Positions 3,689 to 30,425 of a DNA stretch of 64,000 bases are shown one piece after another. A model generated the notes under the pieces. It made no database searches and was not told the origin of the DNA. It saw only the letters and a list, made by a program, of their open reading frames with translations. The translations under genes were made by a program, and so were the position numbers. The DNA comes from Dietzia alimentaria 72 (lineage in GTDB: Bacteria; Actinomycetota; Actinomycetes; Mycobacteriales; Mycobacteriaceae): NCBI RefSeq assembly GCF_000226215.1, contig NZ_AGFF01000014.1:1-64000 (forward strand). The letters are read 5' to 3'. Numbering within the stretch: the stretch's first letter is position 1; every line of letters starts with the position of its first letter.

Positions 3689-3943
3689 TCACTTGCCGGA
3701 GCTCTTGCGTTTGGCGCTGGTGGTCATCGGCCGCTTGCGCTGGTTGAGCGAAGCGCGGGGCACGAAGCCGAATCCGACGCCGCCGATCACCGCCACCGCG
3801 ATGGCCCCGATGATCCACGGCGTGGGTGCGCCGCCGCCGGTGATTCCCATGACCACGATGAGTACGGCCAGTCCGACGCACACCCATGACCACTGGGTCC
3901 AGCGCCAGATGTACTTCGAGGGCTCTTCCCTGAACTCGTCCAT
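3689..3943 (-). CDS. Small two-TM membrane protein, unknown function
   Basis: The predicted 84-residue protein starts MDEFREEPSKYIWRW, has two hydrophobic segments (about residues 15-32 and 38-56) separated by a short Gly/Pro-rich turn, and ends in a strongly basic tail (KRPMTTSAKRKSSGK). Both termini should lie in the cytoplasm. In-frame upstream ATGs at 3979 and 4069 are possible; the 3979 start has a GGAAG sequence upstream, so 12 extra residues cannot be excluded. The gene is divergent from the DUF2470 gene at 4125. I do not recognise the family; it looks like a conserved small actinobacterial membrane protein. Confidence 0.65.
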   Translation of the reverse strand: MDEFREEPSKYIWRWTQWSWVCVGLAVLIVVMGITGGGAPTPWIIGAIAVAVIGGVGFGFVPRASLNQRKRPMTTSAKRKSSGK

Positions 3944-4124
3944 GTGCCCATTTGACCACGTCAGCCGGGTGTGGCGCATATCCGTGGCCACTTCCGGGGC
4001 CCCACCGGCTCCTCGCGGAACGTTGATGTGTCCAGTTTCACGCACCCGGATGTTACTGGCGGGTAGCAATTCGGTCGTCGCGGGGGCTTAATGAAGAGGA
4101 CAGTCCGTTTTGTGGAGGTGCGTG

Positions 4125-4940
4125 ATGGACAACGTGATGGATTCCGTGGTCGAGCGACCGGTCGCCGAGCGTGTGCGCACTGTGCTGGCGCGCGGTGCAG
4201 CCGGATCCATGGAGACGGGGATGCTCAGGCGTCCGCTCAGGTCGGCGCGGGTCCGTGACGACGGCACGGTCGTCCTGGTTGTGGATGTGAGCGGCATGTC
4301 CCGCGAGGCCGGTGACGCCGCCCGGGTCGCGTCCGTCGGAGCCGCGGCCGCCATCGAGATCGTGGACTCTGTCTGCACCGGACGATGCCGCGGGTCGGCA
4401 CCGCGCCCGTCGTTCGCCCTGGACGGGCGCCGGCCGGGAGGTGCCGGACAGTGCGACGACGAGTGCGTCGTGGCCCGCGGGATCGTCACCCTCTCCGGGA
4501 TCGTGACCGCGTCGTCCGAGGCGCGCCCGCGCAGGCTGGTCGCCGCAGACGGTGTCGGGGCAGGCCGGGAAGGGGAGGGGCCCTCTCTGCGGTTGAGCGA
4601 GCTGCAGCCGCTCGAGATCACCTACGTCTCCGCTGACGGGGTGCACATGATCCCCCGTGCCGAACTGGCCGCCGCAGGGGTCGATCTGATCGGGGTGGAC
4701 GAGCAGGCGTGGCTCCGGCGCCTGGCCTCCGATCCGGGCCTCGCGAGCCGTCTGGCACTGCGTGCAGGCCAGCAGATCGCGGGTACCGATCCGTGGGTCG
4801 TGGGCCTGGACCGGTGCGGTGTGGATCTGGCGATCGATTTCGTGGGAGGGGGTTTCCGCGAAACCGTTCGACTGCCGTTCTCGCAGGCCTGTCGCGATTC
4901 CGAGGATGTCACGCGCGAGCTCGCCGCCCTGTCTGGGTAG
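4125..4940 (+). CDS. DUF2470-type protein, first of a pair
   Basis: The 271-residue cytoplasmic protein ends in a DUF2470-like module (about residues 175-270), a domain found at the C terminus of HugZ/PPOX-like haem-handling proteins. The C-terminal half resembles the protein encoded at 5154: both have the pattern W-L-x8-RLALR, then V-G-x-D-R-x-GVDL and RLPF-x-x-AC. The N-terminal half here is distinctive in having four cysteines as two CxxxC pairs (C84, C88, C110, C114) that could bind metal; the paralogue lacks this arrangement. The ATG at 4125 is chosen because GGAGG lies about 8 nt upstream. No iron box precedes this copy; the one at 5034 is downstream. The link to iron or haem is an inference from the family and the neighbouring operator. 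Confidence 0.75.
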   Translation: MDNVMDSVVERPVAERVRTVLARGAAGSMETGMLRRPLRSARVRDDGTVVLVVDVSGMSREAGDAARVASVGAAAAIEIVDSVCTGRCRGSAPRPSFALDGRRPGGAGQCDDECVVARGIVTLSGIVTASSEARPRRLVAADGVGAGREGEGPSLRLSELQPLEITYVSADGVHMIPRAELAAAGVDLIGVDEQAWLRRLASDPGLASRLALRAGQQIAGTDPWVVGLDRCGVDLAIDFVGGGFRETVRLPFSQACRDSEDVTRELAALSG

Positions 4941-5033
4941 GCCGTCGGCGAAGGTTGGCAGGGGCCGTCACTGAGTCTCGTTCCCTGACTACCGGGATGC
5001 GCCGCGGAAAATATTCCCGAAATCACTTGCGCT

Positions 5034-5052
5034 TGAGGTAAGCCTTACCTAA
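5034..5052 (+). promoter_or_regulatory. IdeR/DtxR-type iron box before the second DUF2470 gene
   Basis: The sequence TGAGGTAAGCCTTACCTAA is nearly palindromic (8 of 9 half-site positions) and matches about 15 of 19 positions of the remembered consensus TTAGGTTAGGCTAACCTAA. It lies 101 nt before the GTG/ATG region of the gene at 5154. Iron-loaded IdeR/DtxR would be expected to repress from here. Confidence 0.8.
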
Positions 5053-5153
5053 GTTTATCGGCGCGGGTAGTCACGTCCCCGCCCCCGGACCGTTCCGGCG
5101 CCAATCCCTGAGGCGCCGGAACGGGTCGGGTACGACGACGAGGGAGAAGGCGA

Positions 5154-5984
5154 ATGCGAGCACTAGTGGGGCCCGTCCCCGAACCGGCCGAGCGGGCGAG
5201 TTCAGCCCTCCGCCGCTGCCCCACCGGCACGGTCGAACTCGATGGCAGGCCCGCGTTCCATTCCGCTGGAGACAATCCAGCCGTCGCGAATCCTGCTTTC
5301 GGCCATCCCGCGATCACAACCTCGGTGCAGTTGGTGCACCAGGTCCCAGACACCGCCGACCTCTGGATGGCGCTCCCGATCGCGGACGCTGCCACGATTC
5401 CGTTCGGCGGCACGCGGGCCCGACTCGAGGTGCTCGACGAGATCACCGGGGGAGCGGCACAGGGCCAGTGTCGTCGTGTCGTCGTCGTCGACGGTCTTCT
5501 CGAGGCTCCCGGAGTGCGCGCACAGCGTCGAGCCGCCGCCGACATCGCCGCTGATCTCCCCGATTCCGTCCTGCTCGGGGTGGGCACCGACATCGCCCTG
5601 GGCCGCCTTCGCGCCGACCGCATCCGCCTCGCCGACCATCACGGCGTGACCGATATCGCTCCGGACGACCTCGCCACCTCCGGCCCCGACCCCTTCACTG
5701 ACCTCGAAGGACACTGGCTCGAGCACCTCAACGACCCGCGCTGCGATGTGGTCCCGCGGATCGCCCTGCGCGTCTGCCGCTGCCTGCCCGCCGAACGGCC
5801 CCTGCTGGTGGGGATCGACCGCGCCGGCGTGGACCTCGAGATCGTTGACCGCGAGGACCGGGTCCACCGCAAGCGGCTGCCGTTCGCCGAAGCGTGCGCC
5901 GACGTGCGCGGACTGGGCACCCAGCTCAGGCTCCTCGCTGGCGACGCACGGTACCCTCTGGATCGTGCTGCTCTCCGACCGTGA
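5154..5984 (+). CDS. DUF2470-type protein, iron-box controlled
   Basis: The 276-residue protein has an N-terminal half with a flavin-reductase/PPOX-like flavour ([20 protein letters not shown]) and a C-terminal DUF2470 module (about residues 180-265). It is a paralogue of the protein at 4125. The ATG at 5154 has GAGAAGG just upstream. Its promoter region holds a strong iron box at 5034-5052, so expression should rise when iron is scarce. Known family members act in haem or iron handling; direct haem degradation is only a suggestion here because the HugZ N-terminal split-barrel is not clearly intact. Its last 20 nt overlap the start of dcd, which implies co-transcription and translational coupling of an otherwise housekeeping gene. 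Confidence 0.75.
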
Positions 5985-6528
5985 CCTCCGTACCGAGCTC
6001 GCCGACGGGCGGCTCATCATCGACCCGCTCGACCCGACGCTCATCCAGCCATCGAGTATCGATGTCCGCCTCGACCGGGTGTTCCGCGTCTTCAACAACT
6101 CGCGCTACACCCACATCGACCCCGCGCAGCAGCAGGACGAGCTGACTGAACTGGTCGAGGTGGCAGATGGCGATCCCTTCGTGCTGCACCCCGGGGAGTT
6201 CGTGCTGGGCGCCACCCTTGAAAGGCTGGGCCTGCCCGACGACCTCGCCGGTCGTCTCGAGGGCAAGTCCTCCCTCGGACGACTCGGCCTGCTCACACAC
6301 TCGACCGCCGGATTCATCGATCCCGGTTTCGACGGCCACATCACGCTCGAGCTGTCGAACGTGGCGAACCTGCCCATCACCCTGTGGCCCGGGATGAAGA
6401 TCGGTCAGCTGTGCCTGTTCCGGCTCTCCAGCCCCGCCGAGAACCCGTACGGCAGCGCATCGATGGGCTCCAAGTATCAGGGACAGCGCGGACCCACGGC
6501 GTCCAAGGCATACCTCAACTTCCAGTGA
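5965..6528 (+). CDS. dcd: dCTP deaminase (probably dUMP-forming)
   Basis: The enzyme deaminates dCTP and, in the bifunctional mycobacterial type, also hydrolyses the product to dUMP, feeding thymidylate synthesis. The 187-residue length fits the family (190 in M. tuberculosis). The signature [11 protein letters not shown] begins at residue 100, followed by [11 protein letters not shown] and HITLEL, which carries the catalytic Glu, and the C-terminal [11 protein letters not shown] closes over the nucleotide. The sequence is nearly identical to the mycobacterial enzyme in these blocks, which supports the bifunctional form. The start is a GTG ([12 protein letters not shown]) inside the end of the DUF2470 gene; this overlap would place dcd under the iron box at 5034 unless it has its own promoter. 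The aminotransferase gene converges on it. Confidence 0.95.
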
Positions 6529-6601
6529 GCTGAACTCCCGGCGGGCATCCGCACCCGCAGATGCACTCCCGCCCCCGTGTCGGACAGCCGCCCGTGAGCA
6601 A

Positions 6602-6653
6602 GAACTCGCGCGTGCGCGCCGGCGGTGGCGGGAGTTCATCGATGGTGGCGGAT
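6602..6653. repeat. Dispersed repeat, copy 2
   Basis: This 52-bp segment matches positions 12-63 with identical spacing: gaactcgcgcgtg at its left, gagttcatcg and ggtggcrgat at its right, with a diverged middle. Only a short inverted pair (gaactc/gagttc) remains of the hairpin. It lies between the convergent 3' ends of dcd and alaA. Confidence 0.55.
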
Positions 6654-6663
6654 CTGGCCACCG

Positions 6664-7917
6664 CTACTGCCGGTACGAGCTGAGGAAGTTGCCGATCCGC
6701 TCGATCGCCATGCCCAGATCCCGGCCGGCGGGAAGGGTGACCACCCGGAAGTGGTCGGGATTCGGCCAGTTGAAGCCCGTGCCCTGGGTGACCAGGATCC
6801 GCTCACGCTCCAGCAGGTCGAGGGCGAACTGGCGGTCATCGTGGATCTCGTGGACGTTCGGGTCCAGTTTCGGGAACACGTACAGCGCACCCATGGGCCG
6901 TATACAGCTCACGCCGTGGATCGAGTTGAGCTTTTCCCACGCGATGCCGCGCTGCTCGTGAAGTCGGCCGCCCGGCTCGATGAGCTCGTTGATCGACTGG
7001 TAGCCGCCCAGGGCGACCTGGATCGCGTGCTGCGCCGGAACATTGGGACACAGTCGCGTGGATGCCAGGAGTTCGAGCCCCTCGAGGAACCCCGCCGCGT
7101 GGGCCTTGGGGCCCGTGATCGCGAGCCAGCCCGCCCGGTAGCCGGCCACCCGGTAGGTCTTGGAGAGGCCGTTGAAGGTCAGTACCAGCAGGTCAGGCGC
7201 CAGCGTCGCGATGGAGATGTGCTGCGCCTCGTCATAGACGATCCGGTCGTAGATCTCGTCCGCCAGGATCAGCAGACTGTGCTCGCGGGCCAGGTCCACG
7301 ATCCCCTGCAGCACCTCGCGGGAGTAGACCGCCCCCGTCGGGTTGTTGGGATTGATCACCACGATTGCCTTGGTGCGCGGGGTGATCTTGGACGCGATGT
7401 CCTCCAGCGACGGGTTCCAGTCGTCCTCCTCGTCGCAGAGGTAGTGCACAGGCTTACCGCCGGCGAGCGATGTCATCGCGGTCCAGAGCGGATAGTCCGG
7501 GGCTGGTATCAGGACCTCGTCGCCGTCGTCGAGCAGCGCCTGCATGGTCATGGTGATGAGTTCCGAGACGCCGTTGCCCAGATAGATGTCGTCCACACTG
7601 AGTCGAGGGAAGCCGGGCACCAGTTCGTAACGTGTGAAGATCGCGCGGCGGGCCGACAGTATGCCCTTGGATTCGGAGTAACCCTGCGCGTGCGGGAGCG
7701 CGGCGATCATGTCCCGCATGATCACGTCCGGCGCGTCGAACCCGAACGGAGCCGGGTTGCCAATGTTGAGCTTGAGGATCCGGTGCCCCTCGGACTCGAG
7801 CTGATTGGCTCGAGCCAACACAGGGCCGCGGATCTCGTAGAGGACGTCCTTGAGCTTGGAGGACTGGTCGAGCGTGCGCGGCTGGCGGAGCGAGCGTCCC
7901 GGATTCTCAGGCGTCAT
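6664..7917 (-). CDS. alaA: Alanine-type aminotransferase (PLP, class I)
   Basis: This PLP enzyme is expected to interconvert pyruvate/glutamate and alanine/2-oxoglutarate. The sequence follows E. coli AlaA closely in blocks such as KLNIGNPAPFGFDAPD, GNGVSELI, VPAPDYPLWT-like APDYPLWTAM and INPNNPTGAVYS. The PLP lysine is in FNGLSKTYRVAGYRAGW, near residue 252. M. tuberculosis Rv0337c (annotated aspC) is the positional counterpart, next to the Fe-S reductase Rv0338c as here. I chose the ATG at 7917 (MTPENPGRSL), giving 417 residues; the longer frame adds a basic, low-quality leader. A 17-bp hairpin at 8034 separates it from the upstream reductase gene, so it probably has its own promoter in 7918-8033. 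Confidence 0.92.
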   Translation of the reverse strand: MTPENPGRSLRQPRTLDQSSKLKDVLYEIRGPVLARANQLESEGHRILKLNIGNPAPFGFDAPDVIMRDMIAALPHAQGYSESKGILSARRAIFTRYELVPGFPRLSVDDIYLGNGVSELITMTMQALLDDGDEVLIPAPDYPLWTAMTSLAGGKPVHYLCDEEDDWNPSLEDIASKITPRTKAIVVINPNNPTGAVYSREVLQGIVDLAREHSLLILADEIYDRIVYDEAQHISIATLAPDLLVLTFNGLSKTYRVAGYRAGWLAITGPKAHAAGFLEGLELLASTRLCPNVPAQHAIQVALGGYQSINELIEPGGRLHEQRGIAWEKLNSIHGVSCIRPMGALYVFPKLDPNVHEIHDDRQFALDLLERERILVTQGTGFNWPNPDHFRVVTLPAGRDLGMAIERIGNFLSSYRQ

Positions 7918-8033
7918 ACCTGCCGATTGTGCCACCTCGGGCGCAGTGTCCGGGGTCACCCGTACTTTGCGGCGCGATCGCGAGACCGGCCAGTTGGTCA
8001 CGCCACGCTGGCAGGGATCCTCCGGCGAAATGA

Positions 8034-8073
8034 CCGCGGCCCGTGATCAGAACCTCCTGATCACGGGCCGCGG
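8034..8073 (-). terminator. Hairpin terminator of the Fe-S reductase gene
   Basis: A perfect 17-bp stem (8034-8050 with 8057-8073) with a 6-nt loop begins 16 nt past the stop codon at 8089. No U tract follows. Confidence 0.75.
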
Positions 8074-8088
8074 GCGTGGTGCGTCAAC

Positions 8089-11000
8089 TCAGCCGAGCGA
8101 CAGTCCGTATCCGCCGGACTTCTTCGACCGGGGGATCGCCCCGCCCGCTGCGGGCTTGGCCGTTGCGTCGGCATCCGAGGTCTCCGCAGCAGCGTCAGTG
8201 GCTGTATCGGTGGCCGTTCCGGCGGCAGCCTCCGCCTGTGCCGACCCTTCTGCCTTGACGTGCTCCGCCTTGACATCCTCCGCGTCGGCGTCCGGGGTCT
8301 CCTTCGGCTTCTCGGTTGCCGGAGCAGCCGCAGCCTTCGGGGCGCCCGGGGCCTTGGGGGCACCGGGAGCCTTGCCCGATCCCTTGAGACCCAGCCCGAC
8401 GGTCGGCTTGGCCGGTGCCGCAGTCTTGGACTTCGTCTCCGCCGCCTCGCTGGCGTCCGACTGGGTCTCGGGTGCGGGAGCAGCAGACTCGGGTTCGACG
8501 GGTGCCTTGGCACCGGCCGGAGCCTTCGGAGCACCCGGGGCCTTTGGAGCACCTGGAGCCTTCGGGCCGCCGGGGGCCTTGGCTCCGCCACCGAGTGAGA
8601 GTCCACCCGACTTGGGTGCACCCTTTGTCACGCCGGTCGTGGCCGGAGCCGAGCCCTCGGCGGCTTCCCGCGTCTCCTCGGTGCGCTCGGCGTCCTTGAC
8701 CGCGGACTGGGCCTCGGTGCCGGACGCCTTGCTCGCGCCCGGGGCCTTGGGGCCGCCCGGGGCCTTGCCTCCGCCGCCGAGCGAGAGGCCGCCGGACTTG
8801 GGGGCACCCTTGGAGTCGGCCACTGCTGCGCCGGTCGCGGCGGCACTGGCAGCACCGGCGGTTCCGGCTGCCGAGACCTCGGCGCCCTCGCCCTTGTCGA
8901 CGACCTCATTGTCCGCTGCGTCCTCGGTGGGGGCAGTGGGAGCGGCGGACTTGGCGGCGGCGTCGCTCTCGGCCTGTTCGGCCTCCTTCTCGGCCGTGGT
9001 CTTCTCGCGCTTGGGCTTCTCGAGCCACTCCGCTTCACGCGGCTCGGGCAGGCTGCCGTCGCGGGAGACGGACTCCAGCAGAAGCTGTGCAACGTCCACG
9101 ACCTCGACCTGGCCCTCGAGCTCGGTGTCGGCGGTCTGGGCGGTGGCGCCGTCGGAGAGCATCACGCGGCAGAACGGGCAGCCCGTGGCGATCTTCTTCG
9201 GCTTGACCGAGAGTGCCTCGTCGACGCGGTCGATGTTGATGCGCTTGCCGACCGTCTCCTCCATCCACATACGCGCGCCACCGGCGCCACAGCACATCGA
9301 GCGCTGTCCGTGACGGGGCATCTCCTTGAGGGTGACACCCGACCCGTCCATGAGCTCACGCGGCGCCTCGTACACCTGGTTGTGGCGGCCGAGGTAGCAG
9401 GGGTCGTGGTAGGTGACGTCGCCGTCGATCGGCGCCACCGGCACGAGCCGCTTGTCCCGCACGAGGCGGTTGAGCAGCTGCGTGTGGTGAACCACCTGGT
9501 AGTCGCCGCCCAGCTCGCCGTACTCGTTCTTGAGTGCGTTGAGGCAGTGGGCGCAGGTCACGACGACTTTGCGCTGGGCGGTGGGTACGCCGTCAAAGGC
9601 GTTGTTCATGGTCTCGATGTTCTGCTCCGCGAGCATCTGGAACAGGAACTCGTTGCCCGCGCGGCGCGCGGAGTCACCGGTACAGGTCTCTCCCTGGCCC
9701 AGCACCGCGAACTTCACACCGGCGGTGTGCAGCAGAGTGGCCACGGACTGGGTGGTCTTCTTGGCACGGTCCTCGAAAGCGCCGGCACAACCGACCCAGA
9801 ACAGGTACTCGGTGTCGGAGAAGTCCTCGATGTCCGACCCGATGACCGGGATGTCGAAGTCGAGCGCCTTCATCCAGTCGTCGCGGCCGGAGTTGTTCTG
9901 GCCCCAGGGGTTGCCCTTGTTCTCGAGATTCTTGAACAGGCCAGCCAGCTCGGTCGGAAACTCGGACTCGATGAGCACCTGGTAGCGACGCATGTCCACA
10001 AAGTGGTCGACGTGCTCGATGTCGACGGGGCACTGCTCAACGCAGGCACCGCACATGGTGCAGGACCACAGGGCCTCGGGGTCGATGATGCCGGCGGCGG
10101 TCGGGTCGTCGTTCACATCGGCGGTGGTGGGGCCCACCAGCGGACGCTGAGCCTCGAGGCGGGCGGCCTCGGGGATCTTGGCCAGCTTCTTCTCGTCCGG
10201 GTTGCCATCGGCGTCGACAAGCCCGACCTCCTCGCCCATGACGGTCTTTCCACCGGCAAGCAAGTACGGAGCCTTGGCGGCGCCGTGATCGCGCAGCGAC
10301 ATCATCATGAGCTTGGGGCTCAGCGGCTTGCCCGTGTTCCAGGCTGGGCACTGCTCTTGGCAGCGGCCACACTCGGTACACGTGGAGAAGTCCAGCCAGC
10401 CCTTCCACGAGAAGTCTTCGATCGCGCCGGCGCCCAGCTTCGGCTCGAAGTCCTCGTCCTCTTCAGTGAGCTCTTCGACCTTCTCCATGGTCAGCGCGAC
10501 GCCGTCCATGGTCATGGGCTTGAGGGCGCCCAGCGCGGTGCGGCCGTCGGCCTCGCGCTTGAAGTAGATGTTGAAGAACGCGGAGAAGCGGTGCCAGGCG
10601 ACGCCCCAGGTGATGTTGCGACCCACGACGTACAGCCAGATCATGCCGGTGAGCAGCTTGATCAGTGCGAAGATCGAGACCATCAGTTCGTTGGCCGGGA
10701 GGATCGTCGACAGTGGTCCGGTGACCCAGTCGGTGGCCCAGTGGAAGTCGTTGCCGTCGGCGGCCTGCAGCGAGAGCTTGCCGGCCTTGACGAAGATCAT
10801 GCCCAGGCCCTCGAGGAGCACGACGGCTTCGACGAAGTAGGCGGCCTTACGGTCGGAACCGACGAAGCGGTTGAGTCCGCGCCGATGGTTGACCTGGCGG
10901 ATGATGATCAGCACGACGATGCCGATGACGGTGCCCAGGCCCAGGAACTCGTCGATGGCGTGGTACCAGGTCTGGTCCGACAGCCACGGCCAGCCGCCGC

Positions 11001-20435: not shown

Positions 20436-20860
20436 GCCCCCGGCGGGACGTCGGGGAGCTGGGGCCGGACGACAGCGTCCTGGTGATCTCCGTCGCCGCG
20501 GAATTGTCCGGCCTGCACGCGCAAACCCTACGTACCTACGATCGACTGGGGATCGTCATCCCCGAACGCACCAGCGGTGGCGGCCGACGCTACTCACTGC
20601 GCGATGTCGCACTGTTGCGGGAGGTTCAGCGCCTGAGCCAGGAAGAGGGCGTCAACCTCGCCGGGATCAAGCGGATCATCGAGTTGACCAACCAGGTCGA
20701 TGCACTTCGCAGTCGCGTGTCCGAACTGGTCGACGAGGTGGCCGCGCTCCGCCGCCGTACCGGAACGGCGGGTCGGGCCGGTGAGTTGGTCCACGTACCG
20801 CGCTCCACGTCGGTCGTGGTGTGGCGGCCTCGTCACGAACGTGAGCGCCGCGAAGACTGA
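20432..20860 (+). CDS. hspR: Heat-shock repressor HspR (MerR family)
   Basis: HspR represses the dnaK operon and clpB by binding HAIR boxes, with DnaK acting as co-repressor in studied actinobacteria. The 142-residue protein has the MerR helix-turn-helix (ISVAAELSGLHAQTLRTYDR, then GGGRRYSLRDVALL) and a C-terminal coiled coil (VDALRSRVSELVDEVAAL). The ATG overlaps the dnaJ stop. Matching operators are visible at 16310 and 36676. Its stop codon lies inside the iron box of the next operon. Confidence 0.95.
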   Translation: MSPRRDVGELGPDDSVLVISVAAELSGLHAQTLRTYDRLGIVIPERTSGGGRRYSLRDVALLREVQRLSQEEGVNLAGIKRIIELTNQVDALRSRVSELVDEVAALRRRTGTAGRAGELVHVPRSTSVVVWRPRHERERRED

Positions 20861-20876
20861 GGTAAGGCTTGCCAAT
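20858..20876 (+). promoter_or_regulatory. Iron box before the iron ABC transporter
   Basis: TGAGGTAAGGCTTGCCAAT resembles the IdeR/DtxR operator, with a good left half and a weaker right half. It starts on the hspR stop codon and lies 45 nt before the GTG of the binding-protein gene. Confidence 0.65.
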
Positions 20877-20921
20877 GGTAGATTTCGGGTGTTCCCGATA
20901 AGGCAATCATCGGAGTCTGTA

Positions 20922-21944
20922 GTGACCCATCGAACTCGCGGCCTCGCCGTCGCTCTCACCGCCGTCCTGGCGGCCTCGCTGACTGCATGCGGGCTGTCCG
21001 GAGGTAGCAGCGACGCGTTGGTCGTCTACAACGCCCAGCACGAATCCCTGACCCGCGAATGGGCCGAAGAGTTCACCGCGGAGACCGGGATCGATGTGGA
21101 ATTGCGCAACGGTAGCGACTTTGACCTGGGCAACCAGCTCGTCGCGGAGGGAGATGCCTCCGGGGCGGACCTCTACCTGACGGAGAACTCCCCGGCTATC
21201 TCCATGGTGGCCCGTGAGGGACTCCTGGCGCCCGTGTCCGAGGAGACGCTGACGCAGGTGCCTGAGGAGTACCGGCCGTCCAGCGGCGACTGGGTCGGCA
21301 TCGCTGCCCGCTCCACGGTTTTCGTCTACAACCAGGACGCGGTCGCCGAGGACGAACTCCCGAGGTCCTTCGCCGACCTGGCGAGTCCGCGGTGGAAGGG
21401 CAAGTGGGGTGCCGCGCCGGCAGGGGCGGACTTCCAGGCCATCGTCTCCGCCTCACTCGATCTCGCGGGCGAGGATGCCACCCGGACCTGGCTCGAGTCG
21501 CTGAGAGGTCCCGACGGTAAAACCGCCACCTACAAGGGCAACAAGCCGATCCTCGCCGCCGTCAACTCGGGTGAACTCGACGGTGGGGTGATCTACCACT
21601 ACTACTACTTTGGTGACCAAGCCGGGACCGGGGAGTCCTCGCAGAACGTGGTCCAGCACTACTTCCGCAACGGCGGGCCGGAGTCGTTTGTCTCTCTCTC
21701 GGGCGGGGGCGTCCTCGCCGACGCCCCGCACGCCGAGGACGCGCAGCGCTTCTTGGCCTTCATCACCTCGAAGAAGGGCCAGGAGATCCTGCGGGACTCA
21801 TCCTTCGAGTACCCCGTCGCATCCGGTGTGGAGGCGAACCCAGAGCTGGTCCCACTCGCGGAGCTCAACGCCCCGGCCGTCGACCCGTCGGGCCTGAACG
21901 GCCCGGAGGTGACCGACCTGATGATCTCGCTCGGACTGGCCTGA
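20922..21944 (+). CDS. fbpA: Iron(III) ABC transporter substrate-binding lipoprotein
   Basis: This lipoprotein captures ferric iron outside the membrane and hands it to the permease. The 340 residues begin with a signal peptide ending in the lipobox LTAC (lipid-anchored Cys near residue 22), followed by SDALVVYNAQHESLTREW, the typical start of the FbpA/AfuA class. Paired tyrosines expected to bind Fe3+ are in VIYHYYYFGDQ. The start is the GTG at 20922 with GGAG upstream. The operon continues with permease and ATPase at 4-nt spacing or overlap. The iron box supports iron rather than phosphate, thiamine or spermidine as the cargo. Confidence 0.88.
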   Translation: MTHRTRGLAVALTAVLAASLTACGLSGGSSDALVVYNAQHESLTREWAEEFTAETGIDVELRNGSDFDLGNQLVAEGDASGADLYLTENSPAISMVAREGLLAPVSEETLTQVPEEYRPSSGDWVGIAARSTVFVYNQDAVAEDELPRSFADLASPRWKGKWGAAPAGADFQAIVSASLDLAGEDATRTWLESLRGPDGKTATYKGNKPILAAVNSGELDGGVIYHYYYFGDQAGTGESSQNVVQHYFRNGGPESFVSLSGGGVLADAPHAEDAQRFLAFITSKKGQEILRDSSFEYPVASGVEANPELVPLAELNAPAVDPSGLNGPEVTDLMISLGLA

Positions 21945-21948
21945 GCTG

Positions 21949-23565
21949 ATGGCGATCGTCGCGCCACCACGGCCCACCGCACCGCCCGGCCCTGACCTGC
22001 AGGCCGGGCCATCAGAGCGGACTGTGCGCCCCGTGACGCGAGATCAGGTACGCCGCCCCCCGATCGCGCTGTCGGTGATCGTCGCGGCGCTCACGGTCCT
22101 GTTTCTGGTGCCGGTGGGCTACATCGTCTGGCTCGCCGCGGACATCGGACCGGCACAGGCCGCCGAACTGGTGCTGCGTGAGCGCGTCTTGCGGCTGCTC
22201 GGTTCCACACTCGCCCTAGTGGCGGTGACCGTCCCGCTCACCGTGGTGCTGGGCGTGGCCGCGGCCTGGCTGGTTGAAAGGACCACGCTGCCCGGCCGCC
22301 GGATCTGGGGAGTGCTCTTCGCGGCGCCGCTCGCGGTGCCGGCGTTCGTCATCAGTTACGCCTGGCTGGGAATCGATCCGTCGATCGGCGGACTGTCCGG
22401 TGGCGTGCTCATCGCCGTGTCGGCGTATTTCCCACTCGTCTATCTGCCGGCGGCGGCGACGCTGCGGTGGATCGACCCCGCCGAGGAGGAGGTGGCCCGG
22501 TCCCTCGGTCTGTCGGGGGCGTCGATCGTGTTCAGGGTGCTGGTCCCGCAACTGCGGCTCGCCGTTCTGGGCGGGGCGCTGCTCGTGGCGTTGCACCTGC
22601 TGGCCGAGTACGGCGCGTTCTCCATGATCCGCTTCGACACGTTCACCACGGCGATCGTGGACCAGTATCAGTCGTCCTTCGCCTCCGCATCGGGTGGCGT
22701 GCTCGCCGGGGTCCTGGTACTGGTGTGCCTTGTTCTGCTGGTGATGGAGGCCGGGGCCCGCGGGCGTGCCCGGTATGCCCGACTCGGTTCGGGCACCGCG
22801 CGTCGCACCACTCCGGTGCGTCTTGGGCGATGGACGCCGGTCGCGCTGCTCGGCGCGCTCGCGGTTGTGGTGATCTCCCTGGGCGTGCCCGTGTTTGTGG
22901 TGAGCAGGTGGCTCGTCGTGGGCGGGGTCGAGGTGTGGGCGAATCCGGACCTGGCGGAGGCGTTCGGACAGTCGGTGGGCTACGGGTTCTACGGCGCCGC
23001 CGGCGCCGTGCTGCTGGCGCTGCCGGTGGCGTGGCTGACCATCCGCTACCCCGGGCCCACTGCCAGGCTGGCCGAGGCCGGCAACTATGTGGCCAGCTCG
23101 GTCCCGGGCATCGTTGTGGCGCTGGCCCTGACCACGGTGTCTGTGCGGATGCTGCCGCAGATCTACCAGACCGTGGTGCTGGTCCTGGCCGCGTACGTCC
23201 TGCTATTCCTCCCGCGCGCCGTGGTGACCCTGCGCGCCGGCCTGGCTCAGGCTCCGGAGAGCCTCGAAGAGGCGGCCCGATCGCTCGGCTGCCCGCCGTG
23301 GCGCGCGGTCCTCACGGTGACTGTACGACGCATGGCGCCGTCGATGCTCGTCTCGTTTGCGCTGGTATTCCTGGCGGTGATCAACGAACTCACCGCTACG
23401 CTGCTGCTCTCACCGGCCGGCACCAGCACCCTCGCGACCCGATTCTGGGCTCTGGGACTGGACCTGGATTATGCGGCCGCAGCGCCCTTCGCGATGATCT
23501 TGATCGTGATGTCCGCACCCATGACCTATCTGTTGCTGCGCCAGACCACGGTGGGTGGGCGGTGA
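21949..23565 (+). CDS. fbpB: Iron(III) ABC transporter permease, fused two-domain type
   Basis: The 538-residue membrane protein has about 12 segments arranged as two homologous halves, each with a BPD-transport EAA loop (EEEVARSLGLSGASIVFRV in the first, LEEAARSLGCPPWRAVLTV in the second). This is the FbpB/CysW-like fused form used by ferric-iron importers. The gene begins 4 nt after the binding-protein stop and overlaps the ATPase start (GTGA), so the three proteins are made together. Confidence 0.9.
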   Translation: MAIVAPPRPTAPPGPDLQAGPSERTVRPVTRDQVRRPPIALSVIVAALTVLFLVPVGYIVWLAADIGPAQAAELVLRERVLRLLGSTLALVAVTVPLTVVLGVAAAWLVERTTLPGRRIWGVLFAAPLAVPAFVISYAWLGIDPSIGGLSGGVLIAVSAYFPLVYLPAAATLRWIDPAEEEVARSLGLSGASIVFRVLVPQLRLAVLGGALLVALHLLAEYGAFSMIRFDTFTTAIVDQYQSSFASASGGVLAGVLVLVCLVLLVMEAGARGRARYARLGSGTARRTTPVRLGRWTPVALLGALAVVVISLGVPVFVVSRWLVVGGVEVWANPDLAEAFGQSVGYGFYGAAGAVLLALPVAWLTIRYPGPTARLAEAGNYVASSVPGIVVALALTTVSVRMLPQIYQTVVLVLAAYVLLFLPRAVVTLRAGLAQAPESLEEAARSLGCPPWRAVLTVTVRRMAPSMLVSFALVFLAVINELTATLLLSPAGTSTLATRFWALGLDLDYAAAAPFAMILIVMSAPMTYLLLRQTTVGGR

Positions 23566-24608
23566 ATGCGCGCCGAGACGAAGTCGGGCAGGGGCACCTC
23601 GCCGTACGCGACCTGACCAAGTCGTTTGGCGGGCGCGAGGTCCTGAGCGGGATCGACCTGGACGTCCCCTCGGGTGGCTCGGTGGCGGTGGTGGGCCCGT
23701 CCGGCTGCGGTAAGACGACGCTGCTCAGGGTGATCGCAGGCTTTGAACAGCCCGACTCGGGCTCCGTCAGCCTGGGAGGTCGTGAGCTCACCGGGCCACG
23801 CGGGGTTCCGGCGCACCGGCGGCGGATCGGGTACGTCCCGCAGGACGGCGCGCTGTTCCCGCACCTGAGCGTGGGTGCGAACGTCGGCTTCGGGTTGGCG
23901 CGGCGGGATCGGACCCGGGACAGGATCGCCAGCCTGCTCGAGCGGGTCGCCCTCGACCCCGATATGGCGCGGCGCCGCCCCGACCAGCTCTCCGGCGGGC
24001 AGCAGCAGCGGGTGGCGGTGGCGCGGTCCTTGGCCCAGTCGCCGCATGTCGTGCTGCTGGATGAGGCGTTCTCCGCACTCGACGCCGGGCTGCGTTCCGA
24101 GATTCGCTCGGCGGTGGCCGATATCCTGCGCACGGGCGGGGTGACGGCCCTGCTGGTGACCCACGACCAGGAGGAGGCGCTCTCGTTCGCCGATCGCGTG
24201 GCGGTGATGCGGGAGGGAGCCTTCGTGCAGGTGGGCCGACCGCGGGACGTGTACCTGCACCCCGCCGACGACACCACCGCCGAGTTCTTCGGGGAGGTGG
24301 TGAACCTGTCCGGGCAGGTGCGCGACGGTGTGGCCGAGACCGTGCTGGGGCCGGTCAGGGTCGATGCGGGGGATGGGCCCGTGGCGCTCACCCTCCGTAC
24401 CGAACAGTTGGAGCTGAGCGCGCCGGAAGACGGCGCCGCCCGCGGGGTTGTCCGTGACACCCGGTTCTTCGGCCCGGCCGTGCGATGCGAGATCGACGTC
24501 TACGGCGCGGGGATGATGGTGGCCCGATGCCGACCGCAGAACGCGCCGGAGGTCGACGACGAGGTGGGCATATCCCTGGTCGGCGACGCCCGGCTGCGCG
24601 GTCGCTGA
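23562..24608 (+). CDS. fbpC: Iron(III) ABC transporter ATPase
   Basis: The 348-residue ATPase powers iron import. Walker A is GPSGCGKTT, the Q loop YVPQDGALFPHLSV, the signature LSGGQQQRVAVARSLA and Walker B VLLDEAFSALD, with H in VTHDQEEAL. The C-terminal TOBE-like region is present (VALTLRTEQLEL). The start is a GTG overlapping the permease stop. The gene ends 59 nt before the acyl-activating fusion gene, which has its own iron box, so both may be induced together under iron starvation. Confidence 0.92.
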   Translation: MNARRDEVGQGHLAVRDLTKSFGGREVLSGIDLDVPSGGSVAVVGPSGCGKTTLLRVIAGFEQPDSGSVSLGGRELTGPRGVPAHRRRIGYVPQDGALFPHLSVGANVGFGLARRDRTRDRIASLLERVALDPDMARRRPDQLSGGQQQRVAVARSLAQSPHVVLLDEAFSALDAGLRSEIRSAVADILRTGGVTALLVTHDQEEALSFADRVAVMREGAFVQVGRPRDVYLHPADDTTAEFFGEVVNLSGQVRDGVAETVLGPVRVDAGDGPVALTLRTEQLELSAPEDGAARGVVRDTRFFGPAVRCEIDVYGAGMMVARCRPQNAPEVDDEVGISLVGDARLRGR

Positions 24609-24636: not shown

Positions 24637-24655
24637 TAAGGGTAGGATTGCCTAA
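24637..24655 (+). promoter_or_regulatory. Iron box before the adenylation-carrier-acyltransferase gene
   Basis: TAAGGGTAGGATTGCCTAA agrees with about 14 of 19 positions of the IdeR/DtxR consensus and ends only 12 nt before the GTG start at 24668. Such a short distance suggests a leaderless or near-leaderless transcript whose core promoter is covered by the repressor. Confidence 0.7.
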
Positions 24656-24667
24656 TACAGTGTCCGT

Positions 24668-27316
24668 GTGACGGCCACATATTCGCATCAGGCACTGGGG
24701 TCCCGGGCACCGATGTCGCTCGGCCTGGCCTCCGCGTTCACCGATCGCGGCAGCGCGGTGGCCGTGGTGACGGATGACGCGGAGTACTCGTACGCCGATC
24801 TCGCGGACATGGTCGACGTTCGCAGTCGCGACTACCCGAGCACGGTCACCGGACGTCGGATGGTCGGCATGCTCGCCCACAACACGATCGACTTCCTGGT
24901 GGACTACCTGGCCGCCCACGAGGCCGGCCACGCCGTCCTGCTGCTGCCCCCGGACAGTCCGGCCACCGATGCGCTGGTCAGCGCGTGGACCCCCGATGTG
25001 ATCGCAGGCGACGGTCGCGCGATCCCGGATGCGGCCCACCACGCGGCGCCACGGCACGACCTGCACCGGGACCTCTCGCTACTACTGAGCACCTCCGGCT
25101 CCACCGGCGCCCCCAAACTCGTCCGACAGTCCCGTGAGGCGGTGCTGGCCAACGCCCGCTCGATCGCCGAGTACCTGCGCATCCGCGACCGGGACCGCGC
25201 CATCACCACGCTCCCGCCGCACTACTGCTACGGGCTGTCGGTGATCCACAGCCATCTGCTCCGGGGCGCATCCCTCGTGCTCAACACCGATTCGGTCTCC
25301 ACGCCGGAATTCTGGGACCGGGCGGCCCGCCACGAGGTCACCACCTTCGCGGCCGTCCCGCACACCGTCGAACTCATCGAACGCGCGGGCCTGCACGTGC
25401 TCGACCGGCTCACCCGCCTGCGGTACCTCACCCAGGCAGGTGGCCGGCTCGCCCCGGACTCGGTCCGTCGGGTGGCTCATCACCTGGAATCGCGGGGTGC
25501 CGAACTCGTGGTGATGTACGGCCAGACCGAGGCCACGGCCCGCATGGGCTATCTGCCGCCGCACCTGGCGCGCAGCCGTGCCGAGGCGATCGGCATCGCG
25601 ATCCCCGGCGGCTCGTTTCGCGTGGACACTCCCGCCGGAGCCGCACCGGGGGAGCCCGGCGAGCTGGTCTACGCCGGCCCCAACGTCATGATGGGGTACG
25701 CCCGAACCTCGGCCGACCTCGCACGAGGCTCCGAGCTGGCGGAACTGCGGACCGGCGACCTCGCCCGTATCGCCGATGACGGACTCGTGGAGATCGTGGG
25801 CCGCATGGGTCGCGAGGCCAAGATCTTCGGCCACCGGATCGACCTCGGCCGGGTGGAATCCGTTTTGGCGGACGGCGGGTTCGACGCCTGGTGCGTCGGG
25901 GAGCCGGCCCGGCTCGTGGTGGTGGCGCGGGCGCAGTCGCCGGAGTTGGTGGCCGCTGCCGCGTCTGCCTCGGGACTGCCGACGTCGGCGGTGGAGGTCC
26001 TCGTCGTCGTCGAACCCCCACGCACCTCCGCCGGCAAGATCGACCAGGCCGCGCTCCGCACACTCGTCGCGGATCGCGACCGCACCCACGGCCCCGGAAC
26101 CGGACCAGGGGACGGCGCCCCCAGCGCGCTCGTCGCCCGCGAGCTCGGCTTGGACTCGTGCCCGCCGGAAGCCACATTCGTCGACCTCGGCGGCGACTCC
26201 CTGACCTACGTCGTGCTCTCCACCCGCCTCGAGGAACGCGTCCCTGACCTGCCGCGCGACTGGCACCTCCGCCCGATCGGCGAGCTGGACGCGCTGGCTG
26301 CCGGGCCGCCGCCCGCCCCGGTCTCGCGCTGGACGCCGTGGCGCGCGTGGACCCGCATCGACACCTCGGTGGTGCTGCGCGCGGTGTTCATCCTCACCAT
26401 CGTCGGCGGTCACACCCGCGCCTTCGCGGTCTACGGTGGTGCCCACGTGCTGGTCGCGCTCACCGGATACTCCCTGGCCCGGTTCCGTCTCCACTCGCAC
26501 TACACCCGGGAGCGGGCGCGCGGCGTCCTGGTCACCGCGAGCCGGATCGCCCTGCCGGCGATCGTGTGGTTGCTGCTGGTTACACCGCTGACCAGCCGAT
26601 ATCACTGGTACTCGCCGCTGCTGGCCACACACTTTTTCGGCCCGCACTCGTGGTCGGACGACCGCTGGTGGAACCCGTGGCAGATGTGGTTCATCGAGGC
26701 GGTGGTCTACCTCTTGCTGGGCGTGGCCGCGCTCATGGCGATCCCGGCGGTGACCCGGCTGGACCGGCGCTGGCCGTTCGCCCTGCCCGCCCTACTGGTG
26801 GCGGCGGGCCTGGTCGTGCGGTTCGGCGTGATCGACCTCGGCGGCGGGCCGCTGGTCTGGTACTCGGCGCCCGCCGTGTTGTGGCTGTTCGGCCTGGGTT
26901 GGGCGATCGCGCGCGCGGAACAGACGGGCACCGGTACGGAGGGCATCAGCCGTCGTCTCGGCCTGTGGCCCCGACTGGCCTGCACCGCCGTCGCCCTGGC
27001 GTGCGTGCCCGGGATGTTTGGGCACCCGTCGCGAGAGCTGCTGATCGTGGCGGGCATCGTGGCGCTGATCTGGGTTCCGGCGGTCCGGCTGCCGAGGCCG
27101 GTGGTCCGGCTGGTCACCCCGCTCGCAGCGGCGTCCCTGTTCATCTACCTGACGCATTTCCTGGTCTACCCGCCAATCCGCGATGCAGGCTACGAGTGGC
27201 TCTCGCTGGCCGCCTCGCTGGCCGTGGGGGTGGCTGCGTGGCTGCTGTGGGAGCGCGGGACCCGGGTGGTGCGGCGGCTCGTCGGCGCGTCTGTCGGCTC
27301 CCGCACGGACGGGTAA
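24668..27316 (+). CDS. Adenylation - carrier protein - membrane acyltransferase fusion
   Basis: The 882-residue protein joins three activities. Residues 1-470 are an AMP-forming acyl/aryl-acid ligase: STSGSTGAPK at 141-150, GQTE at 285-288, RTGD at 361-364, GHRIDLGRVE near 388-397 and catalytic Lys457 in TSAGK. Residues 485-545 are an acyl-carrier domain with Ser511 in GGDSL for phosphopantetheine. Residues 565-875 are a polytopic acyltransferase-3-like domain with about ten membrane segments, a His in GGH (582) and WQMWFIEAVVYLL. Together it could activate an acid, load it onto its own carrier and pass it to a membrane or periplasmic acceptor, comparable in logic to DltA-DltC-DltB. The iron box directly upstream and the iron importer next door suggest a siderophore or iron-linked envelope role. 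Substrate and acceptor are unknown. The start is the GTG at 24668. Confidence 0.85.
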   Translation: MTATYSHQALGSRAPMSLGLASAFTDRGSAVAVVTDDAEYSYADLADMVDVRSRDYPSTVTGRRMVGMLAHNTIDFLVDYLAAHEAGHAVLLLPPDSPATDALVSAWTPDVIAGDGRAIPDAAHHAAPRHDLHRDLSLLLSTSGSTGAPKLVRQSREAVLANARSIAEYLRIRDRDRAITTLPPHYCYGLSVIHSHLLRGASLVLNTDSVSTPEFWDRAARHEVTTFAAVPHTVELIERAGLHVLDRLTRLRYLTQAGGRLAPDSVRRVAHHLESRGAELVVMYGQTEATARMGYLPPHLARSRAEAIGIAIPGGSFRVDTPAGAAPGEPGELVYAGPNVMMGYARTSADLARGSELAELRTGDLARIADDGLVEIVGRMGREAKIFGHRIDLGRVESVLADGGFDAWCVGEPARLVVVARAQSPELVAAAASASGLPTSAVEVLVVVEPPRTSAGKIDQAALRTLVADRDRTHGPGTGPGDGAPSALVARELGLDSCPPEATFVDLGGDSLTYVVLSTRLEERVPDLPRDWHLRPIGELDALAAGPPPAPVSRWTPWRAWTRIDTSVVLRAVFILTIVGGHTRAFAVYGGAHVLVALTGYSLARFRLHSHYTRERARGVLVTASRIALPAIVWLLLVTPLTSRYHWYSPLLATHFFGPHSWSDDRWWNPWQMWFIEAVVYLLLGVAALMAIPAVTRLDRRWPFALPALLVAAGLVVRFGVIDLGGGPLVWYSAPAVLWLFGLGWAIARAEQTGTGTEGISRRLGLWPRLACTAVALACVPGMFGHPSRELLIVAGIVALIWVPAVRLPRPVVRLVTPLAAASLFIYLTHFLVYPPIRDAGYEWLSLAASLAVGVAAWLLWERGTRVVRRLVGASVGSRTDG

Positions 27317-28211: not shown

Positions 28212-29131
28212 CCGGGCCCGACGGTACGCGCCCTGGCGACGACGCGCCCACGGAGAAGTTCCCGCCCACCGGCCCGGGCGATTCCGACGCGGACCCGCCC
28301 ACGCAGCAGCTTCCCCCCACCGAGCAGGCCCCGCCGACCGCACACATCCCGCCCGTCCCCGGTGGAACGCCGAGCACGGCGTGGTCCGAATACCCGGATG
28401 ACCCCACCGTGCCCATCCCGACCGGTGACGTGCCTCCACCGCCCGACGTGCCACCACCGGGAGATATGCCCCCGCCCGGTGGCGGAGGGTGGGACGACGA
28501 CGGCTGGGACGACAACGGCGGCGGGGGCTCGACGCCCTGGATGATCGCCGCAATCGTGCTCGCGGTGGCACTGGTCGCGGGGCTGCTGATCTGGTTGGTC
28601 AACGTCACCGGCGATGACTCCGAGTCGACCGCTACGTCCACCTCGACCGCGCCCTCGACGGTCACCCGGACCTCCAGCTCCACACGGCCGACCTCGCCCA
28701 CCGCCACCACGACCCGGCCGCCGAGTGCGGCCGAGCGATGCACGCCGGGGTTCGTGACCGACCGACTGGGCGAGGGCACCACCGTGCGTGAGTGTGACAG
28801 GGAGTTCCTGCTGGTCAGTGGCAAAGACGGCGAGACCGGCCTGTACACGTGGCGCGACGACAGCTGGGCGTTCCTTGCTGATCCGGGCTCTGACGTGTGC
28901 CGCGAACAGCTGGAAGAACTGGGCGTCCCGGACCGCTTCCGCCGGGTGTTCCAGCCCTGCGAGGCACCCATCCCCAGCCCCACGCGGAGCAGCACCGCCA
29001 GCTCGGAAGCCGCCCCGCCTCCCCGGGACACGGCCACCACCGACCGGACCACCACCTCGACATCGACCGACACCTCGACAAGCGAGGTCGACGAGGAGGA
29101 CTCGGACGAGGTCAGGGGCGATCGAAACTGA
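28208..29131 (+). CDS. Single-TM Pro/Thr-rich surface protein, unknown function
   Basis: The 307-residue protein has a long cytoplasmic Pro/Gly/Asp-rich arm (residues 1-107), one membrane segment (about 110-130, WMIAAIVLAVALVAGLLIWL), an external Ser/Thr-rich stalk, a small domain with four cysteines (C178, C194 region, then C-R-E-Q and FQPCEAP) and a Thr/Ser-rich end. Translation is coupled to the nitrilase by ATGA. Its last 20 nt overlap the end of the convergent globin-reductase gene. The layout is that of a wall-spanning anchored protein, not a recognised family. Confidence 0.75.
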   Translation: MTGPDGTRPGDDAPTEKFPPTGPGDSDADPPTQQLPPTEQAPPTAHIPPVPGGTPSTAWSEYPDDPTVPIPTGDVPPPPDVPPPGDMPPPGGGGWDDDGWDDNGGGGSTPWMIAAIVLAVALVAGLLIWLVNVTGDDSESTATSTSTAPSTVTRTSSSTRPTSPTATTTRPPSAAERCTPGFVTDRLGEGTTVRECDREFLLVSGKDGETGLYTWRDDSWAFLADPGSDVCREQLEELGVPDRFRRVFQPCEAPIPSPTRSSTASSEAAPPPRDTATTDRTTTSTSTDTSTSEVDEEDSDEVRGDRN

Positions 29132-30425
29132 TGTGCTCGCGCGGGGTGCCGGCAGCGACCATCCCGCGGACAGTGGCCCGCAGCATGTCAGGCGACCCGG
29201 CAACGAGCACCTGCCGGTCGGCCCACGATCCCCAGCGGGTGACCGCGTCGACGAGCGTGCCCGTCTGTCGGCGGTGCAGGGTGCGGGGCAGCTCTTGGCG
29301 GGCACCCGCCCACCAGGGGTCCTCGTCCTCCTCGGAGACGGGCTGGATGGTCAGCCAGGGTGCTGTGGAGGCGAGCTCGACGAGAGTCGGCAGGTCGTAG
29401 AGATCGCCGGGGTAGCGGGCTCCGTAGAACAGGTGGACGCGTGGATTGGCGCCGTGGCGCATCATGTCCAGAAGCAGGCAGCGCAGCGGAGCGATCCCGG
29501 TGCCACCGCCGATCATCAGCACGTCGCGGAACGGCTCGGAGCGATCGACTTCGAGCAGACCGAGTGGCCGGGCGAGCACCCAGCGGTCGCCCACCCCGAC
29601 TCCCCGCACCAGTGAGCCGCTCAGCGTTCCGCCGGGTACCTCACGCACGTGGAATTCGATCTGGCCGGCCGGGTTCGACGGCATCGACGGGCTCAGCCGA
29701 CGCCAGACTCCGGGCGCATACGGCGTCAGCGCGCTGAGGTACTGGCCCGGGTGATAGTCGAGCGTCGAATCGCAGATGAGACGCACCACCACCACGTCGC
29801 GGGTGGGCCGCAGGACATCGACGACGGTGGCGCCCACCCGGGACGGGCCGACGTCGGAGTCCGCGCCTTCCTGCAGCGCTGTGGAGAGCACCCGGTACAC
29901 GGTTGTCAGGGTGGTGGCGAGCGTGTCGTCCCAGCCCCGGCCACCGAGGTGGCGCAACGTGTCCGCCAAGGCGTCGCCGAAGTGCAGGTAATGGTGGGGC
30001 GACAGCTCGAGCTTGCGGTGGTCCGCGCCGAGGTGCCGTGCGAACTCGACCACCTCGTCGGTTCGAGCCCTGTCCCCGTGGGACGCCTCGGCGGTCTCCA
30101 GCGCCCACGTCATGGCGCGGACGAACTTCGTCAATACCGGCGTCGCGTCGCGGGGGAACAGTTCGCGGAAATCCGGGTGTGCGGCGCGGAGTGCGCGCGC
30201 GAACAGGCCGGGGAATCGTTCGTCCACGATCAGATCCCGCAGCGTGAGCAGGGGCGGCGACTGGTCGTTCACCTCGACAGGCCTGTCGAGCGGTTCGGTC
30301 AGTGGGGCGACGGGCTGCCCGAGAAAGGGGTCCAGGTCTATCCCCGACACCAGGCGTTCGACGTCGGATGCACGGAACGCATCGTCCGATTGGTCAGTTT
30401 TCGGGCTGTTGCCCACGTGGTGCAC
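29112..30425 (-). CDS. Globin-FAD/NAD(P)H reductase (flavohaemoglobin-like)
   Basis: The 437-residue protein joins a globin-like domain (about residues 55-195) to a ferredoxin-NADP reductase-type module. The probable proximal His is in LGADHRKLELSPHHY. The FAD segment is RRLSPSMPSN, and the NAD(P)H site GGGTGIAPLRC. It is related to the second type of actinobacterial flavohaemoglobin (Rv0385-like), whose role is less clear than nitric-oxide dioxygenase. The N-terminal 50 residues are an extra, disordered arm. It is divergent from no gene closely; the surface protein at 30494 lies upstream on the same strand. Nitric oxide detoxification or D-lactate-linked electron transfer are alternatives. 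Confidence 0.8.
   Translation of the reverse strand: MHHVGNSPKTDQSDDAFRASDVERLVSGIDLDPFLGQPVAPLTEPLDRPVEVNDQSPPLLTLRDLIVDERFPGLFARALRAAHPDFRELFPRDATPVLTKFVRAMTWALETAEASHGDRARTDEVVEFARHLGADHRKLELSPHHYLHFGDALADTLRHLGGRGWDDTLATTLTTVYRVLSTALQEGADSDVGPSRVGATVVDVLRPTRDVVVVRLICDSTLDYHPGQYLSALTPYAPGVWRRLSPSMPSNPAGQIEFHVREVPGGTLSGSLVRGVGVGDRWVLARPLGLLEVDRSEPFRDVLMIGGGTGIAPLRCLLLDMMRHGANPRVHLFYGARYPGDLYDLPTLVELASTAPWLTIQPVSEEDEDPWWAGARQELPRTLHRRQTGTLVDAVTRWGSWADRQVLVAGSPDMLRATVRGMVAAGTPREHISFDRP

Follow-up and report, generated by a model that had tools for sequence, protein, structure and literature searches.

A predicted carrier-fed transmembrane acyltransferase associated with an iron box and a ferric importer in Dietzia alimentaria and other Actinomycetota

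The window analysed here, a stretch of 64,000 nucleotides from contig NZ_AGFF01000014.1 of Dietzia alimentaria 72 (genome of 3.35 Mb in 39 contigs), contains a gene for an 882-residue protein in which an adenylation domain, a phosphopantetheine carrier and a membrane acyltransferase domain are joined in one chain. The gene is preceded by a putative iron box and by the genes of a ferric-iron importer (Table 1). This locus raises the question of what such an enzyme would acylate, and how its activity would serve a cell that is short of iron. The reading that we favour, by a small measure, is that the protein is a transmembrane acyltransferase with its own acyl-donor supply, which acts as outlined below and assists ferric uptake through a product that the reading leaves unspecified.

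In this mechanism, an IdeR/DtxR-type repressor would leave the box at 24637-24655 when iron is scarce and the gene would be expressed, as the conserved boxes suggest. Judging from the type of domain and its residues, the N-terminal domain would then adenylate a small carboxylic acid (an alpha-amino acid being improbable) and load it on the arm at Ser511. The arm would bring the acyl group to the cytosolic entrance of the AT3/TmAT domain in place of acyl-coenzyme A (acyl-CoA), and the Arg571/His582 centre would transfer it to an acceptor, probably at the outer face. What appears to be new here is a carrier-fed TmAT acyltransferase that is widely under predicted iron control in Actinomycetota. 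The protein, its iron switch and the importer together suggest an unrecognised step in bacterial iron acquisition.

Domain architecture and acyl-donor supply

The initial annotation, made from the DNA sequence, had described the gene product as a ligase, a carrier and a membrane acyltransferase in a single chain, and we have very little doubt that this architecture and its fold are real. In Pfam searches with the full chain, all three domains scored above their cut-offs, with 132 bits for AMP-binding (cut-off 29.9), 26.4 bits for PP-binding (PF00550; cut-off 20.8) and 45.7 bits for Acyl_transf_3 (PF01757; gathering score 31). The identity of the C-terminus, on which the earlier description had been staked in advance, held as well; PF01757 was matched by all 69 isolated C-terminal parts of family members (E<=0.01), including that of the window protein (49.7 bits). 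Among 49 full-length members, PF01757 was matched in 45 chains and PP-binding in 48, at the same threshold. Lys457, GQTE, RTGD and Ser511 were found at the positions previously assigned to them. Among named organisms, D. aurantiaca has the closest relative, with 79-80% identity.

The N-terminal domain has the fold of ANL enzymes as well as their TSGSTG, YGxTE and RTGD motifs and C-terminal Lys, and the carrier domain combines its PF00550 match with the phosphopantetheine-site serine. In GrsA, Asp235 grips the amino group of alpha-amino acids. The equivalent position, placed through an alignment with LgrA, is Gly189 in 69 of 69 family members and thus differs from that of amino-acid-activating nonribosomal peptide synthetases (NRPS). 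This replacement suggests that the substrate is probably a small carboxylic acid without a free alpha-amino group. Two specific substrates were dropped on similar grounds, namely D-alanine, for which neither the amino-acid Asp nor an MBOAT domain is present, and an aryl-acid siderophore starter, for which the N235-type codes are absent.

Stand-alone adenylate-forming ligases found near acyl carrier protein (ACP) and sugar genes (loci L136 and L181, and also L135) show 38-40% identity to the window protein over the adenylation domain and have the pocket motifs YGLSV, TQAGG and MYGQTEA..R in common with it; unlike the 882-residue protein, they are free-standing, without a fused carrier or acyltransferase. 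The ligases of L136 and L181 (38-39% identity) also share Arg292 and much of the adenylation pocket. Since stand-alone ligases have this residue too, Arg292 is, as far as the aligned sequences indicate, a mark of the ligase subfamily and not of a particular acid. A diacid held by Arg292 was likewise dropped, as the residue, although invariant, is also present in related stand-alone ligases. In L136 (positions 3892-9228), the stand-alone relative is, in a by-eye reading, clustered with genes for a small ACP-like protein, a short-chain dehydrogenase/reductase and a DegT-like aminotransferase, which hints at the ancestry of the ligase.

In the membrane domain, the invariant Arg571 and His582 are spaced by 11 residues, the spacing of R14 and H25 in OafB when compared by published residue positions. 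The 10-helix TmAT core fold is present in the predicted model of the C-terminal domain folded alone. Comparison of the whole chain with known structures gave adenylation-domain matches only among the matches listed, and a sequence profile of the TmAT part found no match among solved structures. A carrier-bound phosphopantetheine arm is without the 3'-phosphate of acetyl-CoA. In simulations of OafB, basic residues including R14 surround this phosphate (a passage of PMC9833829), and in the sections of PMC12423673 and PMC9833829 dealing with AT3/TmAT enzymes (OafB, OafA, HGSNAT and GWT1) the donor described is acyl-CoA. In contrast to these acyl-CoA-fed enzymes, the 882-residue protein has adenylation and carrier domains fused in front of the TmAT domain, a fusion suggesting that the acyl group would be donated by the phosphopantetheine arm, not by CoA, at the cytosolic entrance of the pore.

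This arrangement is reminiscent of DltA-DltC-DltB, which activate an acid, load it on a carrier and hand it to a membrane acyltransferase. The earlier proposal of Dlt-like logic built from different parts fits these data; in contrast to the Dlt proteins, the window protein is a single chain with a TmAT domain (PF01757 and TmAT fold) in place of the MBOAT protein DltB, has no amino-acid-binding Asp and is linked to iron. DltB is described as structurally distinct from TmAT in a part of PMC12423673. A tethered carrier could broaden the range of acids moved across membranes, and the fusion makes the donor step directly testable within one polypeptide.

In the open-licence PubMed Central papers searched (bioRxiv not included), no published description of this architecture or of an iron-regulated version of it was found, in agreement with the earlier suggestion of an undescribed system. 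Similarly, the terms adenylation, AMP-binding, acyl carrier, phosphopantetheine and iron are all absent from a review of AT3 proteins (PMC9558356). The nearest architecture found in print is that of the epsilon-poly-lysine synthetase family, which in the portion of PMC10522769 describing it has a different membrane domain.

Iron control and linkage to a ferric importer

The 19-bp iron box that had been noted 12 nt before the GTG start, TAAGGGTAGGATTGCCTAA, was confirmed in the window and recurs in relatives. It differs at 5 of 19 positions from the strict IdeR/DtxR consensus and at 4 from a looser consensus. With up to five mismatches to the strict consensus, 2 sites were seen in the window against 0.05 expected, and at least one was seen in 10 of 200 first-order shuffles. 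Taken alone the box would be modest evidence, and its recurrence among relatives makes it a solid candidate.

This recurrence was assessed in 97 loci, representing 99 scanned (the window, the best 80 of 302 confirmed loci and 18 further loci) minus L012 and L057, in which no full open reading frame (ORF) was called; near-identical loci were kept. A box with at most 5 mismatches to the looser consensus lies within -300 to +200 of the acyltransferase gene start in 48 of the 97 loci, and 67 of 97 have a box at this start or at the importer start (for the importer, the search covered -450 to +250 relative to the start of the binding protein or, in loci where none was called, -2200 to +250 relative to the permease). 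The background was 2 of 2356 500-nt windows from the same loci, away from gene and importer starts; these windows are not matched for promoter composition, which weakens the comparison. A box precedes the importer in many linked loci, and genes without a box of their own that have a boxed importer upstream on the same strand make up 15 of 21 such arrangements. With a 19-bp promoter box conserved among relatives, as in IdeR/DtxR regulons, the acyltransferase gene is very probably under iron control.

An alignment of five Dietzia sequences showed better conservation of the box and the bases following it than of the rest of the upstream stretch, with a weak box (6 mismatches) in one of the five (L010). 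The region around TACAGT, a putative -10 element, is similar in all five, and its use as such would possibly leave the mRNA nearly leaderless. A TANNNT motif at offset 0 after the box was found in 6 of 48 boxed gene starts; a -10 element at this place is not general. In the whole genome, three sites have at most 3 mismatches to the looser consensus, and none was found with a reversed control pattern. The genome's three best sites adjoin genes for a heme oxygenase, a Peripla_BP_2 binding protein and a DUF2470 protein (just over the cut-off), and it is plausible that the box pattern suits the Dietzia genome. Within the window, the iron box closest to the looser consensus, with 1 mismatch, is located at 5034-5052; the protein encoded behind it (5154-5984) barely passes the DUF2470 cut-off, and a second such protein is encoded at 4110-4940.

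The ferric-iron importer said to lie directly upstream is represented by three genes, which encode a Fe3+-binding-type protein, a fused permease and an ATPase, the components of SfuABC/YfuABC importers. By phmmer, the binding lipoprotein matches YfuA (1xvx) with E 6e-111 and SfuA (1xvy) with E 6e-109. The ORF listed for it (20700-21944) is probably over-extended, as the predicted lipoprotein signal begins near 20922. With this start, an iron-box-like site, TGAGGTAAGGCTTGCCAAT, falls upstream of the gene, 45 nt before its likely start. Sites with up to 6 mismatches numbered 3 in the window against 0.6 expected, at least one occurring in 91 of 200 shuffles, and TGAGGTAAGGCTTGCCAAT alone would be a weak iron box. 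The same three components as in SfuABC, YfuABC and FbpABC importers are thus encoded upstream of the acyltransferase gene. In the relevant passages of the Frankia and Arthrobacter genome papers (PMC4531530, PMC3534580), FbpABC/SfuABC are described as binding-protein ABC importers; the word "acyltransferase" is absent from the main text of both, and no acyltransferase partner for the importer is given there.

Importer genes are located near the acyltransferase gene in at least 55 of the 97 loci, upstream on the same strand in 21, downstream on the same strand in 16, downstream and convergent in 9 and upstream and divergent in 9. The figure of 55 is a lower bound, as L018, L051 and L059, scored as lacking an importer, show permease or strong ATPase pieces by tblastn; neighbouring genes were called with a GC-frame heuristic that often overlooked ATPase genes and gave shadow ORFs in their place. 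In a set of 397 genomes from the order, the full gene is present in 51, the permease (E<=1e-40) in 126 and both in 47, with the two less than 8 kb apart in 25 of the 47 (Fisher p 3e-22, without correction for phylogeny). The 51 remain from 84 genomes matched at E<=1e-60 after 33, mostly with adenylation-domain-only matches, were dropped; G149, G212 and G327 were kept although the gene is split, and G058, G065 and G161, which have the permease and possibly a full gene, were dropped as partial. The locus arrangements and the Fisher test reject linkage by chance, and we consider a functional link between gene and importer in Actinomycetota highly likely. In a wider sample, 15 of 396 genomes drawn from the phylum gave a match at E<=1e-100. 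On a tree of the loci, in which the label "ironbox" applied to 53 of 79 rows and plasmid rows were unlabelled, the label changed 17 times, a number as low in 5 of 500 shuffles; the tree was not used for counts.

The pair is also found on plasmids. In 5 of 6 actinobacterial plasmid regions opened, gene and importer occur together (Rhodococcus opacus pROB01, R. fascians, Rhodococcus sp. WAY2, Mycolicibacterium chubuense and M. crocinum), with overlapping coding ends in R. fascians and M. crocinum; the Arthrobacter plasmid carries the acyltransferase gene without the importer. On the M. chubuense and R. fascians plasmids (L175, L182), cadmium-resistance and P-type ATPase genes adjoin the pair, and in one genome (G335, locus L129) a single importer has a copy of the acyltransferase gene on either side. 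An enzyme partner that is conserved in many actinobacterial families, also occurs on plasmids and is probably iron-controlled provides a lead on how Fe3+ is delivered to Sfu-type importers in Gram-positive bacteria.

Acceptor, product and alternative explanations

The initial annotation had put forward an envelope component or a siderophore as the acceptor, which is best taken as a hypothesis. Transfer of the acyl group to an outer-face acceptor is reasonably likely. In a more speculative final step, the product would cooperate with the SfuABC-type importer; most likely it would be a weak ferric ligand, either retained at the surface or secreted, from which Fe3+ would pass to the binding lipoprotein. 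That the product is a ferric ligand is conceivable, with the balance somewhat against it. The complete one-protein route, in which the carrier-fed TmAT domain acylates an acceptor that is exported or located at the surface, yielding a ligand that gathers Fe3+ for the partner importer, is a tentative proposal and a shade less likely still. If true, it would add a novel donor mode to transmembrane acyl transfer and a novel type of cassette, also plasmid-borne, to iron acquisition.

Several observations weigh against tying the enzyme to ferric uptake. Of the 126 genomes with the permease, 79 do not have the full gene, and in 20 importer regions unlinked to the gene, some of them from genomes that carry it elsewhere, neither an AT3 nor a carrier match was found within five genes, one distant AMP-ligase match being present (L158, E 1e-11). 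Moreover, 42 of the 97 loci were scored as without importer, 19 of them with and 23 without a box, and 12 of these 23 are Nocardia loci, which often have a PAC2-family gene nearby. Among proteobacteria, nine regions were inspected (two from Leisingera, and one each from Rhodobacter, Rhizobium etli p42e, Rhizobium sp., a Roseateles-labelled record, Sinorhizobium, Paracoccus and Phyllobacterium), and in 8 of the 9 tblastn detected neither a permease nor a binding protein of the type encoded in the window; nearby binding proteins match pyrimidine-precursor binders in Rhodobacter and sugar binders in Phyllobacterium. The D. alimentaria genome itself has one match to IucA/IucC siderophore synthetases, with no box in the surrounding 3.75 kb (best site 8 mismatches), and the acyltransferase therefore need not be its sole route to chelated iron. 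Finally, the adenylation pocket is like that of ligases encoded next to ACP and sugar genes, an indication of a glycan as the acceptor.

Because most proteobacterial copies opened are without an adjacent iron importer, the chemistry of the enzyme need not be tied to iron. On Paracoccus pNSM5b, a permease piece is convergent to the acyltransferase gene, and an annotated Fe(3+) ABC binding protein and an ATPase gene follow across the record start; this binding protein matches iron-binding structures of another FbpA subfamily (1y9u, E 1e-132). The enzyme thus looks like a general device that is often iron-tied in actinobacteria, with at least one further case outside them; among Actinomycetota, iron linkage is frequent without being universal. 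On pNSM5b (L185:6941-9535, L193:1011-5582), the acyltransferase gene lies near the Fe3+ importer, with phospholipid-synthesis genes following, and a CDP-alcohol phosphatidyltransferase gene is also found near the acyltransferase gene in Rhodobacter (L173), possibly a hint of a lipid acceptor. On two Leisingera plasmids (L172, L180), the three-domain gene converges with an aminotransferase gene, and zinc-uptake genes are found within a few kb.

The main rival to the ferric-ligand reading is envelope tailoring of a Dlt-like kind, in which a wall or membrane glycan or lipid would be acylated when iron is scarce, altering charge or permeability without forming an iron ligand, with the importer as a fellow member of the iron regulon. 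The pocket likeness and the proteobacterial copies described above both favour this explanation. Two points speak against it: the hosts vary in envelope type, and the association of gene and importer persists through changes of gene order, on plasmids and between families far apart, more than a common regulator by itself would demand. AT3 proteins are also described as decorating sugar-containing surface structures (a passage of PMC9558356). On balance we consider envelope tailoring unlikely, to about the same degree as the complete ferric-ligand route.

The enzyme could instead tailor a siderophore or other small molecule on the cytosolic side, for example by acylating the product of the genome's IucA/IucC enzyme. 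Macrolide acyltransferases of the AT3 family tailor small molecules on this side of the membrane, and the IucA/IucC match and the iron control would both suit such a role. Against it, no cluster of neighbouring genes, besides importer genes and shadow ORFs, occurs in more than 13 of the 101 clustered loci, the larger clusters reflecting Nocardia synteny, and no shared siderophore-synthesis gene was seen in that part of the neighbours run through Pfam. Cytosolic tailoring is improbable. The lack of a widely shared neighbour suggests that acid and acceptor are likely common metabolites or envelope parts.

A polymer-making synthetase is the least credible alternative and was dropped for its wrong membrane domain: cationic homopoly-amino-acid synthetases (epsilon-PLs, PosA) are likewise NRPS-like single chains with adenylation, carrier and membrane domains in this order, and epsilon-PLs also has a membrane-bound C-terminal domain, but the known enzymes activate diamino acids, whereas Gly189 here replaces the amino-acid-holding Asp, and their C-terminal domain, as described in PMC10522769, comprises six helices and three soluble parts over about 730 residues, compared to a TmAT fold of 327 residues here.

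Features of the window

Table 1. Coordinates of the acyltransferase gene, its domains and residues, and the upstream importer and box sites in the window
Feature	Position	Strand	Remarks
Weaker iron-box-like site TGAGGTAAGGCTTGCCAAT	20858..20876	+	6 mismatches to strict consensus
Fe3+-binding lipoprotein, SfuA/YfuA type	20922..21944	+	phmmer; signal peptide with lipobox in sequence
Fused double permease, SfuB-like	21949..23565	+	BPD_transp_1, two stretches
Importer ABC ATPase, SfuC-like	23562..24608	+	ABC_tran and TOBE_2 on longer ORF; NCBIfam
Putative iron box TAAGGGTAGGATTGCCTAA	24637-24655	+	19 bp; 12 nt before acyltransferase GTG
TACAGT, putative -10 element	24656..24661	+	Directly 3' of box, 6 nt before GTG
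Adenylation-carrier-transmembrane acyltransferase gene	24668..27316	+	882 aa, GTG start, ORF intact
Adenylation (ANL) domain	24704..26089	+	Residues 13-474; Pfam, family alignment, structure comparison
Arg292 codon	25541-25543	+	A5 region; invariant
Catalytic Lys457 codon	26036-26038	+	Invariant in 69/69 family members
Carrier domain	26120..26302	+	Residues 485-545; PF00550; bounds set by helices of model
Phosphopantetheine-site Ser511 codon	26198-26200	+	Invariant in 69/69
AT3/TmAT membrane domain	26333..27313	+	Residues 556-882; 327 residues
Arg571 codon	26378-26380	+	Invariant among family members
His582 codon	26411-26413	+	Invariant among family members

Downstream of the acyltransferase gene, the opposite strand of the window (29112-30425) encodes a 437-residue flavohemoglobin-like protein with globin, FAD-binding and NAD-binding domains.
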